Shown here piece after piece: positions 37,864 through 44,053 of a stretch of 64,000 bases of DNA. The notes under the pieces were generated by a model. It did no database searches. It was not told the origin of the DNA and saw only the letters and a list, made by a program, of their open reading frames with translations. Within the stretch, counting starts at the first letter, position 1; every line of letters begins with the position of its first letter. Position numbers and translations under genes: made by a program. Source of the stretch: Chryseobacterium koreense CCUG 49689 (lineage in GTDB: Bacteria > Bacteroidota > Bacteroidia > Flavobacteriales > Weeksellaceae); contig NZ_LFNG01000006.1 in NCBI RefSeq assembly GCF_001045435.1, positions 248,001-312,000 on the forward strand, written 5' to 3'.

Positions 37864-38193
37864 CTACCGATTCTGCAGCTCCATCATGCCTTCCGGGGAG
37901 ACAAAATCATAGTTCCAGGCGGGTTCGAAGGTGAGTTCTATTTCCACTTCTATTTCCGGAAATTCTTTTTCCAGGGCGTTGGTCACCCCCATTTTGATGG
38001 CGTCACCCATCGGACAAAATGGCGAGGTCAAAGTCATCAACACGTGCACTTTATCTTCAGCCGGGAAATCAATGTCATACACCAATCCCAAATCGATGAT
38101 ATTGACCATTAATTCAGGATCCATCACTTCATAGAGCACCATTTCTGCGCGTCTTTGGAAGTCGTAATTTTTATCGTTTTCGTCGAAAGTCAT
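37864..38193 (-). CDS. SufT/MIP18-type (DUF59) Fe-S assembly factor
   Basis: This single-domain protein of 109 residues has the MIP18 signature: DPELMVNIIDLGLVYDI early on and TLTSPFCPMGDAI with the functionally important Cys near residue 60. Such proteins help mature Fe-S proteins; the PaaD subgroup does so for an oxygenase. It starts with an ATGA overlap with the membrane protein gene at 38190, so the two are translationally coupled. The company of RIC and hemerythrin proteins suggests Fe-S repair under nitrosative or oxidative stress. Confidence 0.85.
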   Translation of the reverse strand: MTFDENDKNYDFQRRAEMVLYEVMDPELMVNIIDLGLVYDIDFPAEDKVHVLMTLTSPFCPMGDAIKMGVTNALEKEFPEIEVEIELTFEPAWNYDFVSPEGMMELQNR

Positions 38194-39461
38194 GCTAATT
38201 TTTTTGTTTTGTGTAAGAGTAATTTAAAGACATTCACATTATAAATCACCGCCAAAACCACCCACAGGAAAAGGCCGATTCTGATGACGACTAAATGCTG
38301 CAAAATCAGTCCTAAAGCGAAAGTGAGCATCGCCGCGATAAAAATCCGGAACTGCCAAATGGTGAGTCGCTCGCTATACAAATGCTTCGGGAGCGGCACT
38401 TTCACCTTCCCCGAAAGGTGTTTGTAATGGCCATTCCAAATGATGAAAGGCAAGGTCTTGAAGGTTTTTCCTAAAATAATATTGGTGATCCAACCCAGGA
38501 AAATCAGCGTCCCATAAACCATCACCCATCGGTAACCTTCGGAATAATAAACCACGGGAATGATAAGCACCGCTATTATTAAACTTAAAAAGGAAAGAAA
38601 GGCATGCTTCATCAGGAGTTCGACCCTTTTTCGCAAACGGTTTTTGTAGGCATCATAAAGATACGTCAGCCAAAAGACGATTCCGAGAAAAACGAGACCT
38701 GCTTCAATGAAAATCCGCCAGGTGATCTGGAAGAAAAAGCCGTCTATCAAAAATAAAATTAACCCGAGGTTTTGAAAAAAGAATGCCCTTTTCAGCAAAT
38801 ATTCTTTGGTAGATTTCCCCAACAAAAACATGGGAACCAGTTTGGTGGAAACGCCCGCAATGAGCTGCAGAAACCATCCCGCAATTCCCATGTGCGCATG
38901 AAGTTTCAGCACCTCCAAATGGCTGATCGGAAAAATGGACGACCTCATCTTCAGGTTGATTGCCAACAAAAGCCCCACAGAAACCGTGAAAAGCAACCAA
39001 ATTGCCGAACCGGTAATGAACATTTTCTGGGCGGAATATCTGGCGCAAATCCTGGCGGTTTTCAGCACATTCACCACAAAAAGCACCACCGAAAAAACGA
39101 TGAGCGAACCACCCGAAATCATCACCCAACCCACATCGAGGTTCCAAAATTTCCAGGTGAGCAAAATAATACCCAAAGTGAGGGTGTACCAACTTAAGGA
39201 AGCCATTTTTTCGCTGTAGAGATCCTGCTCGCAAATCACGGGCAGCAACTGATGAACCGCCCCAAAAATAATCATCGTTCCCCATCCCAAAGCGGCGAGG
39301 TGCACAATGGTCAATAAATGCGGGGTGAAATAATGCCGGGTAAAGGATTCCGGCGTCAAAAACATCACCACGCAAAGAACCAGAAAAACCACTGCTCCTG
39401 TTGCATAAAACGGAAGAATTGCGCTGTTTCCCGGTGCTTTACCGATGTTGATTTCTGCCAC
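38190..39461 (-). CDS. Multi-pass membrane protein, heme-copper oxidase subunit I-like
   Basis: This 423-residue integral membrane protein has roughly 11-12 transmembrane helices. Histidines fall inside or near helices in patterns like CcoN/NorB-type heme proteins: H48 and H54 (PHLLTIVHLAALGWG), H70 (GAVHQLLP), and H188 and H190 (KLHAHMG). I infer a heme-binding role, perhaps nitric oxide handling or electron transfer, but the match is structural and by eye. An NnrS-like protein is the alternative. The start is a GTG with no in-frame ATG nearby. It is coupled to the DUF59 gene downstream. Confidence 0.7.
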   Translation of the reverse strand: MAEINIGKAPGNSAILPFYATGAVVFLVLCVVMFLTPESFTRHYFTPHLLTIVHLAALGWGTMIIFGAVHQLLPVICEQDLYSEKMASLSWYTLTLGIILLTWKFWNLDVGWVMISGGSLIVFSVVLFVVNVLKTARICARYSAQKMFITGSAIWLLFTVSVGLLLAINLKMRSSIFPISHLEVLKLHAHMGIAGWFLQLIAGVSTKLVPMFLLGKSTKEYLLKRAFFFQNLGLILFLIDGFFFQITWRIFIEAGLVFLGIVFWLTYLYDAYKNRLRKRVELLMKHAFLSFLSLIIAVLIIPVVYYSEGYRWVMVYGTLIFLGWITNIILGKTFKTLPFIIWNGHYKHLSGKVKVPLPKHLYSERLTIWQFRIFIAAMLTFALGLILQHLVVIRIGLFLWVVLAVIYNVNVFKLLLHKTKKLA

Positions 39462-39482
39462 TTTTTGAATTCGGTTTAGAAA

Positions 39483-40319
39483 TTATTTTTTGTAAAAAAT
39501 GAGCATCCTCACATTTCCCTCTTCGATATTGTGAATGTGGACCTCAAAATCTTTTTCTGCCAACTCTTCCAAAAGGTACACAGGAATCCTTTTGTGGTCT
39601 ATGTACAGCGCGTTTCCGGCAGGAAGCGTTTCCAGTTCGCCGAGAATCGCCTGCATGGGACCGGGCATTTCCAGTTCGCGCACATCAATCTTGGTGAGTT
39701 GGCCTTCTTCAAATCTGGAAAGAACCTCGTCGAAATGTGCCGCATCGTGCATTATCACTTTGCTGTCTGCGGTTTCGGAAGCCGGTTCCTCCTCTTTCTT
39801 TTTCTTCAGGAAATAGGTGTGGAATTCTTTGTCGGAAATGTTTTCCACAAAGGAATCTTCGGCTTTCTGCTGCTTCAAAAGATGGATCAAAGGAGTAGGA
39901 ACGAAATTATTGACCACACAAAGAATCTTCCCGTTTGGAACTTCCTTGAAGCGGTGCAGAATTTCCTTCAGCGGATCGGCTCCGTCATCAATAATCGGAC
40001 GAACATCATAAAAATCGATATCTTCTTTCGGGGCGTTTTGTAGCCAGCCCGGTCTCGGCTCGTGCGAAGTTTCCTCTTTTGGCGATTCCATTCCCTCGAA
40101 AACAAATCCGAGCGGAGCAAGCACCCTTTTGAAGTCTTCCACTTTCGCGCCGCCCATTTTCGCAGCTTCCGCAATGGTTACCCGGGAAGCCATGATTTTT
40201 CTTAAAATCGGATTCTTCAGTTTTTCCAGTGGTTTTGCAATGGAGGCGATGGCTTCCACAGATTGCGAATTCTCTTTAATCAACTCGGATATTTTTGTTT
40301 TTGCCGTAATTATTTTCAT
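39483..40319 (-). CDS. DUF1858-DUF2249-DUF2249 protein
   Basis: The product (279 residues from the ATG at 40319) has a DUF1858-like N-terminal helical domain (about residues 2-65, ISELIKENSQSVEAIASIAKP), a linker and two DUF2249 domains (about 98-170 and 205-279; the second contains DHKRIPVYLLEELAEKDF). DUF2249 occurs with hemerythrin and RIC proteins and is assumed to be a redox or metal-related sulfur-carrier-like fold; its biochemistry is not established. A TTG two codons upstream is ignored. It is in a tight minus-strand run with the hemerythrin and the heme-copper-like genes. Confidence 0.82.
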   Translation of the reverse strand: MKIITAKTKISELIKENSQSVEAIASIAKPLEKLKNPILRKIMASRVTIAEAAKMGGAKVEDFKRVLAPLGFVFEGMESPKEETSHEPRPGWLQNAPKEDIDFYDVRPIIDDGADPLKEILHRFKEVPNGKILCVVNNFVPTPLIHLLKQQKAEDSFVENISDKEFHTYFLKKKKEEEPASETADSKVIMHDAAHFDEVLSRFEEGQLTKIDVRELEMPGPMQAILGELETLPAGNALYIDHKRIPVYLLEELAEKDFEVHIHNIEEGNVRMLIFYKK

Positions 40320-40355
40320 CTTCAATTTTCGATTTTATGGTCCGTTTTCGCGCTA

Positions 40356-40850
40356 TTATTTTTGAATCTGTTCTTTCGCCCAAAATTCATCGTCATAGTC
40401 TTCCAAAGCGTTGTGTTCCTCACCGTGAAGGATTTCCCCGATTTTTTGGAGTTCCTCTACTGAAAGTTTATTTTCCAGATATGGGAAAAGCTGCCGCTCC
40501 TCGAATCTGGTGTGGTCATCTATCAAATCTGCGAGTTCCAGATAAAGCGGATAACTTTTTTCCTCGGTTCTCACATTGATTTCGTTGATTTTAGCAATAA
40601 TCAGTCTGTGTTCATTCAATCCACGGTTCACCATTTCATCTTCCACATCAAGGAAAAGCAACTGTTCTTCAGACTGGAAATGGTGCTCCAGATGATGTTT
40701 CCAAAACCAGTTGATGTACCTGTTCATTCGCTCGGGTTGCACTTCGGCTTTCACGCCTTTTCTGAGTTTCCAGCAAAATAGCAGTGTAGCGTGATGTTCA
40801 CGGGAAATCGGGACGATGTTTTCGTTTCGTTTGATGGGTTTTTTTTCCAT
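40356..40850 (-). CDS. Hemerythrin-domain protein
   Basis: This 164-residue four-helix protein should bind a diiron site. Ligand candidates in order are H19/H20 (SREHHATLLF), the HHLEHHFQSEEQLLF block (His and Glu), NEHRLII, and DDHTRFEERQLFPYLE (His, Glu). Hemerythrin-like proteins sense or scavenge O2 or NO and deliver iron for Fe-S repair. It is in line with DUF2249 and NDH-2 genes (gaps 36 and 51 nt), so one transcript is likely. Confidence 0.9.
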   Translation of the reverse strand: MEKKPIKRNENIVPISREHHATLLFCWKLRKGVKAEVQPERMNRYINWFWKHHLEHHFQSEEQLLFLDVEDEMVNRGLNEHRLIIAKINEINVRTEEKSYPLYLELADLIDDHTRFEERQLFPYLENKLSVEELQKIGEILHGEEHNALEDYDDEFWAKEQIQK

Positions 40851-40901
40851 ATCATTTTTTTTGCCTTAATATTTGCCTTTAAATACCACAATTTGAATCA
40901 T

Positions 40902-42176
40902 CTATTGATAAATCCATTGTGGTTTTTTAAGCTTTAAACTCCCCTTTTCCGCAATTATAAGGCGTAGTGAAGAATCATTGGTAAAGAAAGTCCACATCCA
41001 ATTGATGAAGATGATGAGTTTATTCCGAACGCTCAGAATCAGCATTAAATGCAGGAACATCCAGAAAACCCATGCGAAAAATCCCTTAAAACTGAACAGG
41101 GGCAAATCCACCGCGGCTTTGTATTTGCCAACGGTCGCCATGCTTCCCTGATCTTTGTACAGGAAAGGTTTTATCGTTTTCCCTTTAATGATTTTATTAA
41201 AATTCAAGGCCAGATTCTTCGCCTGATTGATGGCAACATTTGCCACTTGCGGGTGACCTTTTGGATATTTTTCGGAAATCTGCATCGCAATGTCTCCCAC
41301 CGCAAAAATATTTTCGAATCCTTCTATTTTGTTGAAATCATCGACCAAATATCTATTTCCCTGAATGATTTCCTTTGAAAAACCCTCGATGATATTTCCG
41401 GTAACTCCTGCCGCCCAAATTACATTTTCGGATTTGATGGCATAGCCGTCTTTCAAGATCAGATTTCCATGTTCATACCGGTCCACAAAACGGTTGAGCA
41501 AGACCTCCACTCCTAGTTTTTTCAAATATTCCAAAGAGGCCGTTTGAGCCAGTTCGCTCATATTTCCAAGCGTTTTTCCACTTCCTTCGACCAGGATAAT
41601 CCTGATTTTCGAAGTGTCGATTTCCGGATAATCTTTTGGAAGGATATTCTTTTTCATTTCTGCAAAAGCACCGGCCAATTCCACACCGGTCGGTCCGGCT
41701 CCCACGATCACGATATTGTTTAGACCGCTGTTGTAATCTTGGGTGGAATTGATGCGCTCGAAATTCCTTAAGACCCTGTTTCTGATCTGGATTGCCTCAA
41801 AAGTGCTTTTCAGTGGCAATGCGGATTTTTCCAGTTCCGAGTTGTTGAAATAATTGGTTTTGCAGCCGGTTGCAATGACCAAATAATCATATCCAAATGC
41901 TCCGGCATCGGTTGAAATTGTTTGTTGATCAGGATTTACCGAATTTACTTCTGCCATCTGAATACGGACTCCTTCCCTTTTCTGAAAAATTTTCCGGAAA
42001 GGAAACGAGATGCTCGAAGGTTCCAGCTGCGCAGCCGCGACCTGATAAAACAACGGCTGAAACTGGTGGTGATTGGACTTATCCAGCAAAAGCACATCGT
42101 AATGCTTGTTATCAATGTGTTTCACGAACTGAAGTCCCGCAAATCCACCGCCGATGACGGCTATTTTCTTTTTCAC
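40902..42176 (-). CDS. ndh: Type II NADH:quinone oxidoreductase
   Basis: NDH-2 passes electrons from NADH to quinone without pumping protons. The 424-residue product has the FAD dinucleotide motif GGGFAG at residues 9-14, the NADH motif VGAGPTGVELAG near 160, the FAVGDIA motif near 290 and a C-terminal membrane-anchoring region with hydrophobic helices (WVFWMFLHLMLILSV). It starts with GTG, directly before the FAD motif, so no other start is possible. In this cluster it may supply reducing power to the quinone pool or to NO-reducing partners. An unusual perfect hairpin lies 25 nt upstream. Confidence 0.93.
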   Translation of the reverse strand: MKKKIAVIGGGFAGLQFVKHIDNKHYDVLLLDKSNHHQFQPLFYQVAAAQLEPSSISFPFRKIFQKREGVRIQMAEVNSVNPDQQTISTDAGAFGYDYLVIATGCKTNYFNNSELEKSALPLKSTFEAIQIRNRVLRNFERINSTQDYNSGLNNIVIVGAGPTGVELAGAFAEMKKNILPKDYPEIDTSKIRIILVEGSGKTLGNMSELAQTASLEYLKKLGVEVLLNRFVDRYEHGNLILKDGYAIKSENVIWAAGVTGNIIEGFSKEIIQGNRYLVDDFNKIEGFENIFAVGDIAMQISEKYPKGHPQVANVAINQAKNLALNFNKIIKGKTIKPFLYKDQGSMATVGKYKAAVDLPLFSFKGFFAWVFWMFLHLMLILSVRNKLIIFINWMWTFFTNDSSLRLIIAEKGSLKLKKPQWIYQ

Positions 42177-42200
42177 AATAATTGATTTTGCTGTTGGTAG

Positions 42201-42233
42201 AGCGTTGTTAGCGCTTCAAGCGCTAACAACGCT
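42201..42233. repeat. Perfect 15-bp inverted repeat ahead of ndh
   Basis: AGCGTTGTTAGCGCT (42201-42215), loop TCA, then its exact reverse complement (42219-42233). A T run (TTTTTAATT) follows on the plus strand, where there is no gene to terminate; on the minus strand, where transcription runs, an A run precedes and no T run follows. It sits between the RIC fusion stop and the ndh start and may stabilise or attenuate the transcript. Confidence 0.85.
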
Positions 42234-42239
42234 TTTTAA

Positions 42240-43376
42240 TTAAACTTCCGTAAGTTGCCGATCCAGCTCCAAAGCTTTTGGAAACAGGTAATCGTTTTCC
42301 AGCCGGAAGTGCTCGTTTAAATCTGCCTCAAATTCTTTAAGTTTTCCATAAAGGAAGGAAAATGAGTTACATGCATTCTTAGGAGGCGTGAAATTGTGGG
42401 TGATTCTCCTGATCAAATTCAGGTCCTCATTTGCAATTTCGTGATCCTTTAATAAAACCCTGATCGGCAAATCCAAAGTCCCGACTTCATAAGTCGTTTT
42501 TTCTTCCGGATTTCTTCTTTTCGCCAAACCTTGTTTGATGACCGGGAAAAGCACGCCTTCTTCGTTGGCAATGTGATCCAATAAATCCTGGAGGAAATGG
42601 TGAGTCTGGGTTGCAACCCGGTGAAGCTCCGGATGATCTGTTCCATGGTGTTCGGAAACCTTGATCGCCAAACCATTCAGTGCTTCCGCGTTATCTTTGA
42701 TGTACTGATGGTGTTTTTCCACGATATAGTCTGCAAGTTCATCAAGCTCCCATTCATCGAAATCATCACTTTTAGCCGAATTTGAACCGGAATCGCTGCA
42801 GCCGAATTTCACTCCTTTTTCTTTGAGCAATTCCGCCTTTTTCACATCCTTTTCGGGAATCGCACCTTTAGCAGTTTGTTTTTCTGCCGGATTTTTTGCG
42901 ATTAACACTTTGTACCATTCCGGACCCTTTTGAAGGTATTCCCAGGTAAAGATATTTCCTCTTTCCGCCAAAAGTTCATAATACAGCGGTTTTGGATCAT
43001 GGTCATTATCAATGATGAAACTTTCGCCGGGATTCAGTGCATCGAAATGTTGAAAGATCGTCGGATGCTTGAATTTTGGTTCAATTTTGGTCACGTCCAA
43101 AGTTTCCTTCGGTTCAGGTTTCGCTTCCTCTTTGGTTTCTTCGGCAGGATTTTTCGCGATCTGCACCATAAACCATTCCGGTCCCTTCTGCAGATATTCC
43201 CAGGTGAAAATATTTCCTCTTTCGGCAAGAAGCTCGTAATATAAAGGTTTCGGATCATGGTCGTTTTCTATGATGAAACTTTCACCTGCTTCCAGAGCGT
43301 CGAAATGTTTAAAAACGGTGGGGTGTTTCAGGCGAGGTTCTATTTTGGTAACGTCCAAAGTTTCCAGTGTTGCCAT
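42240..43376 (-). CDS. DUF2249-DUF2249-RIC/hemerythrin fusion (ScdA/YtfE-like)
   Basis: RIC proteins (YtfE, ScdA) repair Fe-S clusters damaged by NO. This 378-residue fusion has two nearly identical DUF2249 domains (about residues 5-79 and 91-165; by eye 65 of 75 positions agree, including NDHDPKPLYYELLAERG), then a short remnant of the ScdA N-terminal domain (LLKEKGVKFGCSDSG, about 184-198) and a hemerythrin domain (about 205-375) with HH, HTDHPE, HHF, HIANEE, KDHEIANE and NEHFRLE ligands. The usual CC pair of the ScdA N-domain is reduced to one Cys. It is probably regulated by the Rrf2 protein encoded just upstream. Confidence 0.88.
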   Translation of the reverse strand: MATLETLDVTKIEPRLKHPTVFKHFDALEAGESFIIENDHDPKPLYYELLAERGNIFTWEYLQKGPEWFMVQIAKNPAEETKEEAKPEPKETLDVTKIEPKFKHPTIFQHFDALNPGESFIIDNDHDPKPLYYELLAERGNIFTWEYLQKGPEWYKVLIAKNPAEKQTAKGAIPEKDVKKAELLKEKGVKFGCSDSGSNSAKSDDFDEWELDELADYIVEKHHQYIKDNAEALNGLAIKVSEHHGTDHPELHRVATQTHHFLQDLLDHIANEEGVLFPVIKQGLAKRRNPEEKTTYEVGTLDLPIRVLLKDHEIANEDLNLIRRITHNFTPPKNACNSFSFLYGKLKEFEADLNEHFRLENDYLFPKALELDRQLTEV

Positions 43377-43457
43377 TGTTGTTTAGATTTATTTGTTTAA
43401 AAATTGGTTTATTCGATATTTATGGGTCTTTCCATTAAAAAATTAATCAAAAAAAAT

Positions 43458-43473
43458 AAGACCATTTTATCCT
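43458..43473 (-). promoter_or_regulatory. Operator-like site ahead of the RIC fusion gene
   Basis: AAGACCATTTTATCCT agrees with the palindrome-centred sequence AAGACAAATTTGTCCT at the Rrf2 promoter in 13 of 16 positions. It lies 82 nt upstream of the RIC fusion ATG. No clean -7 box is seen between it and the gene, so its role is tentative. Confidence 0.4.
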
Positions 43474-43492
43474 TTTTAGGTTTAAAAATTTT

Positions 43493-43927
43493 TCATCCTC
43501 TTTTTAATTGCAAAACTTCGTCCACATCTTCATTTCTGAATCTGCTTAAAGTGACCTTTCCATAGATTTTATAGAGTTGGTCTCTCGCTTCCTTGTATTC
43601 ATTGTGTATCGGACAAGGATTGGATTCCGAGCAGAATGCCAAACCGAGACCACAACCGTGAAACATTTTATCTCCGTCAATGGCTTCCACGATGTCTGCC
43701 AAAGAAAATTCCGCCGCTTTATCCGAGATATAAAATCCGCCGTATCTCCCTTTTGCAGATTGCAAAAATCCCTGCCTGCTCAATCCCTGCAGAATCTTCG
43801 CGATGAAAAGCTCGGGAGAATTAATCTTCTCCGAAATTTCTTTGATATTTACCATGGTTCCGTCTTTGGATTGCTGCGCGATGTAAATCATCGCCCTTAA
43901 CGCATATTCACATGTTTTCGAAAGCAT
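43493..43927 (-). CDS. Rrf2-family transcriptional regulator with three Cys (NsrR/IscR-like)
   Basis: From the ATG at 43927 (MLSKTCEYALRAMIYIA) this is a 144-residue winged-helix regulator. The recognition helix region (SPELFIAKILQGLSRQGFL) and wing (KGRYGGFYI) are typical. C-terminal cysteines in CGLGLAFCSESNPCP are spaced C-x6-C-x5-C, close to the Fe-S ligands of NsrR and IscR, so it likely senses NO or Fe-S status through a cluster. A TTG seven codons upstream is ignored. It heads the RIC/hemerythrin cluster and has a palindrome over its own -33 box, indicating autoregulation. Confidence 0.9.
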   Translation of the reverse strand: MLSKTCEYALRAMIYIAQQSKDGTMVNIKEISEKINSPELFIAKILQGLSRQGFLQSAKGRYGGFYISDKAAEFSLADIVEAIDGDKMFHGCGLGLAFCSESNPCPIHNEYKEARDQLYKIYGKVTLSRFRNEDVDEVLQLKRG

Positions 43928-43945: not shown

Positions 43946-43984
43946 CAAAGGTAAAGATAATTTTTTAAATAGGACAAATTTGTC
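43946..43984 (-). promoter_or_regulatory. Rrf2 promoter with palindromic operator
   Basis: The minus strand has TACCTTTG (43946-43953), a TAnnTTTG -7 box, and TTG 21 nt upstream (43975-43977). The TTG lies inside a perfect 12-bp palindrome GACAAATTTGTC (43973-43984). Binding there would block the -33 element, as expected for autorepression. The leader to the ATG would be about 10 nt. Confidence 0.65.
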
Positions 43985-44002
43985 TTAATTAAATTTAAGC
44001 AT

Positions 44003-44036
44003 AAAAAAATCCTCCGAGAAAAATGCTCAGAGGATT
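44003..44036 (-). terminator. Rho-independent terminator of the EF-G-like gene
   Basis: Minus-strand 11-bp stem AATCCTCTGAG/CTCGGAGGATT (one T-G pair) with loop CATTTTT and a T run, 18 nt past the stop at 44054. Confidence 0.9.
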
Positions 44037-44053
44037 CAATAAAACTATTCGGG

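Follow-up and report, generated by a model that had tools for sequence, protein, structure and literature searches.

A conserved six-gene cassette of Bacteroidota, tied to nirK and nosZ, as a probable nitric oxide protection and repair module

Introduction

The systems closest to the gene cassette described here, which lies in a 64,000-nucleotide stretch of the Chryseobacterium koreense CCUG 49689 genome (NCBI RefSeq assembly GCF_001045435.1, contig NZ_LFNG01000006.1, positions 248,001 to 312,000 of the forward strand; hereafter the window), are the NsrR regulon of proteobacteria, the di-iron protein YtfE/RIC/ScdA, the membrane protein NnrS and the DUF2249 proteins of Thermus and Haloferax. 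NnrS and other homologues of heme-copper oxidases (HCOs) were reportedly linked to denitrification by Pei et al. in 2014 (Protein Sci), and we take COG4309 to be the same family as DUF2249. The operator motif of proteobacterial NsrR is gATGyAT-N5-ATrCATc, and the targets of its regulon include RIC/dnrN, nirK, norB, nnrS and COG4309; for the last of these a link to norB and NsrR was drawn in 2005 (Rodionov et al., 2005, PMC1274295). DUF2249 has been tied to nitrate respiration and denitrification through DrpA of Thermus, for which a nitrate-sensor model was put forward (PMC6282519), and in Haloferax mediterranei the four DUF2249 genes go up during denitrification (PMC11218638). A 2025 survey gives the name 'initiator-terminators' to genomes in which nir and nosZ occur without nor, puts them at 9% of the Bacteroidota genomes that have denitrification genes and leaves open how they handle nitric oxide (NO) (PMC12569097).

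Here we report that the window holds a conserved cassette in which an Rrf2-family regulator stands with di-iron, DUF2249, HCO-fold and MIP18 proteins, and which accompanies nirK and nosZ. We suggest that in NirK-type denitrifiers it is probably a module for protection and repair, inducible by NO. Its tie to nirK/nosZ denitrification, an operator and a predicted TusA-like fold of DUF2249 go beyond an initial annotation of the same DNA. Among open-licence papers we found none on the full cassette, on the operator or on a TusA fold of DUF2249; the cassette, operator and regulon appear to be new, links between DUF2249 and NO having been predicted in 2005.

Results and discussion

The cassette is conserved and accompanies nirK and nosZ

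Six genes, coding for the Rrf2 regulator, a DUF2249-DUF2249-RIC fusion, a hemerythrin, a DUF1858-DUF2249-DUF2249 protein, a COX1-fold membrane protein (gene 6 of the run in the window) and a MIP18 protein, make up the conserved cassette. The family sample comprised 148 genomes, one per species, some of them drafts and all mutually related. Gene 6 was scored as present at E<=1e-60, which selects 21 of the 148 (at E<=0.001 there are matches in 130, the other listed ones being mostly frames of about 750 aa of the cbb3 type), and DUF2249 occurs in the identical 21 genomes. Neighbourhoods were compared at 20 loci from 19 genomes besides that of the window, with the G079 region left out (G and L numbers are our handles for genomes and loci). 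All 20 have the DUF1858-DUF2249, COX1-like and MIP18 genes and the DUF2249-RIC gene (truncated in L048); rrf2 was found in 19, the remaining locus, L047, stopping at a contig edge, and the hemerythrin gene in 11. The regulator gene comes first in 15 loci (in one of them it would, judged by a contig end) and last in the five distant ones, so that the linkage withstands reordering. The wider set consisted of 80 loci out of 269 relatives, obtained by a scan of named genomes with titles nearly all of Bacteroidota and one of Chlorobiota; gene counts in it rest on sequence clusters, each named after one member, and are lower bounds because some loci are cut by contig ends. It contains the DUF1858-DUF2249 gene in 73 loci, DUF2249-RIC in 67, MIP18 in 67, Rrf2 in 35 and the hemerythrin in 19. 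The closest named relative of gene 6, among the matches listed, is in Chryseobacterium sp. R2A-55, at 90%.

The initial annotation had described seven consecutive minus-strand genes with the domains given here, joined by short gaps and one ATGA overlap, and the open reading frames (ORFs), Pfam matches and spacing bear this out. The recurrence of the gene order in relatives, which it had offered as a check and which extends from the window's family to other Bacteroidota, shows that the arrangement is not due to chance. Its further claim that all seven genes form the unit is not supported, since the type II NADH dehydrogenase NDH-2 lies inside the cassette in only one of the 20 other family loci, that of the window's sister (L035/L091), and is thereby ruled out as a core member; a related gene in L134 and L137 is downstream of the cassette on the opposite strand. 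Given this distribution, a rewiring of electron input by NDH-2, as had been proposed, is at most a lineage-specific addition. The idea of a dedicated NO-defence and repair module, in turn, stands as to its conservation and gains a tie to NO from the operator described below, and falls only as a seven-gene unit.

Counted over their model cut-offs, nirK and nosZ are found in 46 and 51 of the 148 family genomes and together in 28, of which 20 carry the cassette. Both genes are thus present in 20 of the 21 cassette genomes compared with 8 of 127 others (Fisher 2e-17, without correction for ancestry), and no genome with only nirK (18) or only nosZ (23) has the cassette. In a phylum sample of 395 genomes gene 6 was found in 26, with nosZ in 24 of these carriers as against 104 of 369 non-carriers, and in eight of the 24 genomes with both the two matches start 4-16 kb apart. 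The retrieved DNA of the 80 wider loci includes nosZ in 33 (28 on the same strand), nosD in 29, an ABC ATPase at the place of nosF in 29, nosL in 25, a cytochrome c in 32 and a Crp-type regulator in 24; nirK is present in three, and directly follows the MIP18 gene in L118 and L140.

A shared operator

All 15 loci in which rrf2 is first, the window included, have a 28-bp palindrome upstream of that gene. A matrix trained on these same 15 sites returned no site scoring at least 18 in 3.0 Mb of Markov sequence and four null matches of at least 12 per 3.0 Mb. The palindrome overlaps the -33 region of the rrf2 promoter, which is of the Bacteroidetes type: TAnnTTTG, which we take to be the Bacteroidetes -7 consensus, lies at an almost constant distance in all 15 loci, as against 1.8% of random 45-mers from the window, and a script detected the -33/-7 pair in nine of the 15. 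A sigma-70 scan, which gave 7 sites against a shuffle mean of 12, was not used.

When the 3.15 Mb genome of the window was searched for the 28-mer with up to three mismatches, three places only were returned, before RIC, rrf2 and nirK. By the matrix, the promoter of the canonical RIC gene scores 38.3, a site 40 nt ahead of the nirK ATG scores 29.0, and one 32 nt ahead of the norC-like ORF of a norC-like/NOR-like operon (NOR, nitric oxide reductase) scores 20.7; a scan of the stretches around nosZ, cbb3 and the second oxidase in this genome gave no site of at least 12. The nirK site was present in 17 of 18 genomes examined, and the site before the DUF2249-RIC gene, weak in the window, scores 15.4-25.2 in 8 of the 80 wider loci. 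The canonical RIC gene stands alone with an operator in the window's genome and its sister, and in G026, G110, G114 and G126 it follows a second Rrf2 of the same cysteine pattern, with an operator between the two. The shared operator, which is TTAATTAAGACAAATTTGTCTTAATTAA-like and does not match the NsrR motif, would thus mark an NsrR-like regulon of rrf2, RIC, nirK and the NOR-like operon. An operator-like site was also noted directly before a porin-like gene (about 430 aa, by reading) in L177 and L193, of G126 and G118.

The Rrf2 protein has Cys92, Cys99, Cys105 and His108 invariant in 18 of 18 sequences and probably holds an iron-sulfur (Fe-S) cluster on the three conserved cysteines. It scores 59.7, 55.8 and 52.0 bits on the RirA, IscR and NsrR models, respectively.

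The membrane, di-iron and DUF2249 proteins

The predicted structure of gene 6 (pLDDT 91.6, pTM 0.91) matches cbb3 subunit I (3mk7) with Z 36.3 and a root-mean-square deviation (rmsd) of 2.6 over 384 residues, and NOR (4xyd) with Z 34.0 and rmsd 3.2 over 380; by sequence, the only solved structure returned was a sterol reductase, at E 0.15. The set of six histidine ligands is incomplete, with the HH of transmembrane helix (TM) 7 and the HxH of TM10 lost and H54 of TM2 and H188/H190 of TM6 conserved, H54 and H188 being invariant in 49 members. The loss of most ligand histidines means that this is no ordinary NO reductase, and a working heme-copper oxidase or NOR is ruled out by the ligands though the fold is clear. 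Assignment to NnrS by sequence found no support, Pfam NnrS (PF05940) touching 1 of the 49 members, at E 0.6; an NnrS entry was also absent from the listed fold matches, which speaks neither for nor against a relation.

The DUF2249-RIC protein has residues at all seven di-iron ligand positions of YtfE (H223, H244, H268, E272, H312, H356 and E360, by reading of an alignment to YtfE chains). Published YtfE ligands include H129, H160, E133 and E208 (PMC9268430). Against TIGR03652 it gives 9e-44 and 149.9 of 204.7 bits, below the cut-off. Of the DfCCgG motif the window protein keeps one cysteine (C193), while in the five distant cassette proteins it is intact, as DFCCGGK or DFCCGGN; since the di-cysteine motif supplies electrons in YtfE (PMC9052748), electron delivery may differ here. 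In the RIC fusions of L043 and L045 the position of YtfE His129 is Asn, and both strains are without a separate hemerythrin gene. Two descriptions in the initial annotation thus need amendment in part: its heme-copper-like membrane protein has the HCO fold without the HCO ligand set, and its DUF2249-DUF2249-RIC fusion is present with its di-iron ligands and with DfCCgG reduced to a single cysteine.

The DUF1858-DUF2249-DUF2249 model has a mean pLDDT of 90 and a pTM of 0.43, which leaves the packing of its domains uncertain. As a whole it gave no match at E<=0.001 in a plain Foldseek search. Taken by domain, the DUF1858 part of the predicted structure matches 2fi0 (Z 10.8), and the C-terminal DUF2249 has the beta-alpha-beta-alpha-beta-beta fold of TusA/SirA, matching E. 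coli TusA with Z 9.2 and rmsd 2.2 over 74 residues and TsuB with Z 9.6; the first DUF2249 shows the same order of strands and helices with middling matches only, the best being to IF3 (Z 7.4). Pfam TusA matches 23 of 42 members of this protein group, with a best E of 3.4e-7 and 0.055 for the window protein. The carrier cysteine of TusA (CPxP) is replaced, by M220 in the C-terminal DUF2249 (42 of 42) and, by reading, by His-Pro in the RIC fusion. DUF2249 is therefore predicted to adopt the fold of TusA while lacking its carrier cysteine. The MIP18 protein falls below the NCBIfam equivalog cut-offs.

Layout of the locus

The features of the locus are collected in Table 1. Successive genes of the run are separated by 116, 63, 51, 30 and 21 nt, and the last two overlap at 38190-38193. 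The run is preceded by an EF-G2 gene, which has a terminator-like hairpin at 44007-44037, and is followed after 90 nt by an esterase-like gene. The hairpin between the DUF2249-RIC and NDH-2 genes has a similar counterpart with changed stem bases in the sister locus L091 and none elsewhere in the window. In 12 of the 80 wider loci, a class III ribonucleotide reductase gene (NrdD) lies nearby and has the same orientation as the cassette (e.g. L138:11722-13827). A second membrane protein, with an HGHSHFAFAGW motif and no Pfam match at 1e-5, is encoded in 20 of 80 (e.g. L160:12724-13983 and L153:11506-12798), and its gene sits within the cassette in Mucilaginibacter.

Table 1. Genes and sequence elements of the locus, in positions of the window.
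Feature	Positions	Strand	Evidence or remark
Rrf2-family regulator, NsrR-like	43493-43927	minus	Pfam Rrf2 1.3e-28
DUF2249-DUF2249-(degenerate ScdA_N, single Cys193)-RIC/YtfE-type di-iron hemerythrin domain	42240-43376	minus	Pfam DUF2249 1e-49, Hemerythrin 2e-14
NDH-2 type II NADH dehydrogenase, lineage-specific addition	40902-42176	minus	Pfam NDH2_C 5e-10
Single-domain hemerythrin-like protein, optional member	40356-40850	minus	Pfam Hemerythrin 2e-10
DUF1858-DUF2249-DUF2249 protein	39483-40325	minus	Pfam DUF2249 5e-23, DUF1858 8e-11
COX1-like 12-TM protein (gene 6)	38190-39461	minus	Pfam COX1 5e-5, under gathering score
MIP18/DUF59 protein	37864-38193	minus	Pfam FeS_assembly_P 3.3e-14; ATGA-coupled to gene 6
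28-bp palindromic operator TTAATTAAGACAAATTTGTCCTATTTAA (minus-strand reading)	43965-43992	.	37 nt upstream of rrf2 ATG; score 40.2
-7 element TACCTTTG	43946-43953	minus	matches TAnnTTTG
-33-like TTTG	43975-43978		inside 28-bp operator
Weak second operator copy before DUF2249-RIC gene	43452-43479	.	score 13.0
Perfect hairpin between DUF2249-RIC and NDH-2 genes	42204-42230	.	

NO reductases in cassette genomes

COX1-family proteins were listed in 47 genomes and active-site motifs were inspected in gene 6 and in 17 further HCO proteins, including the qNORs of G137 and G002; for frames of about 585-600 aa this inspection covered the window's genome. As the PF00115 search missed gene 6 in its own genome, divergent HCOs can escape it. 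Proteins of qNOR size, a class set by frame length and Pfam score, were found in 1 of 20 nirK-positive cassette genomes versus 16 of 26 nirK-positive genomes without the cassette (Fisher 1e-4, ancestry again uncorrected). A canonical-type NOR is present in five of the 20 cassette genomes with nirK and nosZ (a qNOR in G137, cNORs in G011 and G040, and NorB-like proteins of about 640 aa in G069 and G079); four (G000, G085, G024 and G067) have only a NOR-like HCO in which the TM6 His is absent and the second TM10 His replaced, and for the other 11 the COX1-family listing shows no HCO of NOR type. Two of the eight nirK+nosZ genomes without the cassette have a qNOR and in six none was found, so that the absence of NOR does not go along with the cassette (canonical NOR in 5/20 versus 2/8, p=1). 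The cassette, then, is frequent where NOR was not found, although it is not required for the loss of NOR. Family genomes with nirK and nosZ in which no canonical NOR was found number 21, and the presence of the cassette in 15 of them supplies named genes for the question of NO handling in nor-less genomes; the six that have neither weaken the notion that gene 6 is simply 'the missing NOR'.

The NOR-like HCO of the window's genome is encoded at L058:9628-10959 (minus strand) next to a small cytochrome c, lacks the TM6 His and the second TM10 His, has matches in 19 of 148 family genomes at E<=1e-30 and is preceded by the Rrf2 operator; it may be an unusual NOR or some other N-oxide enzyme. Catalytic subunits of NOR type, about 640 aa long and bearing a VVHYWVE motif, are encoded at L225:2712-4634 (minus) and L227:470-2383 (plus). 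The former, from G069, has a C-terminal DUF2249-like domain at 2e-5, below the cut-off, and is likely to be a physical fusion of NOR and DUF2249; no such domain was found in the latter at 0.001.

Proposed role and alternatives

We suggest that the cassette most plausibly protects NirK-type denitrifiers from NO and repairs the damage that it causes. Rrf2 would bind the palindrome over the -33 region and repress RIC, nirK and the NOR-like operon as well as its own operon, until NO from NirK nitrosylates the proposed cluster and the genes are switched on. By analogy with YtfE and with SufT/PaaD relatives, the RIC di-iron protein, the second hemerythrin and MIP18 could then handle NO and nitrosylated iron and restore Fe-S proteins. 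The HCO-fold protein, with its leftover TM2 and TM6 histidines and an open heme face, may bind NO at the membrane, as has been proposed for HCO homologues of the NnrS type. In the weakest step, the DUF2249 domains, TusA-like in fold and with Met or His for the carrier Cys, might serve in docking or in metal or NO handling and join the di-iron proteins to the membrane protein, and NDH-2 would be an added electron input in the window's lineage.

Several observations weigh against this proposal. Eight family genomes with nirK and nosZ lack the cassette, G057, a draft of about 460 contigs, has the cassette with neither gene detected, and gene 6 occurs without nosZ in G269 and G516. The regulon does not need the cassette, as G110 and G118, the two examined of the eight cassette-free genomes with nirK and nosZ, have the operator before nirK, and no operator site was found in the nirK region of G137. 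The operator covers part of the cassette's range: a site of at least 15 is present in only 20 of the 80 wider loci, and the five distant family cassettes have, by reading, a different repeat of the AAAAGTA-N6-TACTTTT type. Control may differ elsewhere, nos-linked cassettes from other families being mostly without the operator and a Crp-type gene being near in 24 of 80 loci. The control for the 28-mer search gave one forward and one reverse match, and a 17-base pattern did no better than its backwards control (24 matches versus 31 in nine genomes), for which reason the 28-base matrix and pattern were used. The regulator is far under the NsrR equivalog cut-off (52.0 of 182 bits), and its operator differs from the proteobacterial motif. 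Finally, E. coli YtfE has been described as a nitrite reductase that generates NO and has very little NO reductase activity (PMC9052748).

The cassette might instead serve the assembly or maintenance of NosZ, NOR and NirK, with the TusA-like DUF2249 and MIP18 proteins carrying cofactors or metals. The nosZ genes in the DNA of 33 of the 80 loci, the DUF2249-like C-terminus of the G069 NOR-type protein and the membership of the TusA fold and MIP18 in families of Fe-S and sulfur delivery would fit such a role. We hold it to be unlikely, as the sulfur-carrier cysteine is lost, the cassette is absent from 31 of the 51 family genomes with nosZ, and the operator stands before RIC and nirK with none found in the nosZ region of the same genome, which points to an NO response.

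A non-canonical NO reductase, converting NO to nitrous oxide (N2O) and so bridging NirK and NosZ without cNOR or qNOR, with a di-iron catalyst fed with electrons through the HCO-fold protein, would account for the 15 of 20 nirK+nosZ cassette genomes that show no canonical NOR, for the scarcity of qNOR-sized proteins among nirK-positive cassette genomes and for the absence of the cassette from family genomes with nirK or nosZ only; according to a review of RIC, moreover, E. coli YtfE forms an FeNO species with NO in a reaction giving N2O (PMC9268430). It seems doubtful nonetheless, for six of the eight nirK+nosZ genomes without the cassette likewise show no canonical NOR, gene 6 is without the TM7 and TM10 ligands, YtfE is a very poor NO reductase, the p-values are inflated by shared ancestry and divergent NORs may have escaped the search. 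We give a similarly small chance to the idea that a di-iron site, a de-catalysed HCO scaffold and DUF2249 coupling together provide the missing NO-to-N2O step, or a handover of NO to an enzyme, in the nor-less 'initiator-terminator' Bacteroidota. It is very improbable that the cassette is a general operon for Fe-S or oxidative stress, controlled by an IscR/SufR-like Rrf2, and that shared ecology has produced the denitrification link as a by-product: the similar scores of Rrf2 on the RirA, IscR and NsrR models and the presence of two Fe-S factors, MIP18 and RIC, would allow it, but the operator before nirK and the NOR-like operon is specific to N-oxide metabolism, as is the physical link with nos and nirK.

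With a module for NO protection and repair as the preferred reading, DUF2249 gains a predicted fold and a functional context, and the Bacteroidota gain a testable NO regulon.

Comparison with known systems

The predicted regulon resembles that of NsrR in its Rrf2 regulator and in its targets, RIC, nirK, norB, an HCO-related membrane protein and COG4309. It differs in that the operator is unrelated, the regulator falls below the NsrR cut-off and the parts are gathered in one cassette, with DUF2249 fused to RIC and an HCO-like protein that by Pfam is not NnrS. The RIC fusion shares with YtfE/RIC/ScdA the seven di-iron ligand positions and the TIGR03652 match and departs from them in its two leading DUF2249 domains and, in the window protein, the single cysteine. 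Like gene 6, NnrS presumably has a 12-TM HCO fold with few histidines left and a proposed role in NO metabolism or denitrification, whereas the conserved pattern of TM2 His54 and TM6 His188/His190 is gene 6's own and Pfam NnrS touches only one of its 49 members. With DrpA of Thermus and the Haloferax proteins the cassette has in common that DUF2249 is tied to nitrate respiration or denitrification; there the domain is mostly single, whereas here it occurs in tandem, joined to DUF1858 or RIC, and within what appears to be an NO-type regulon.

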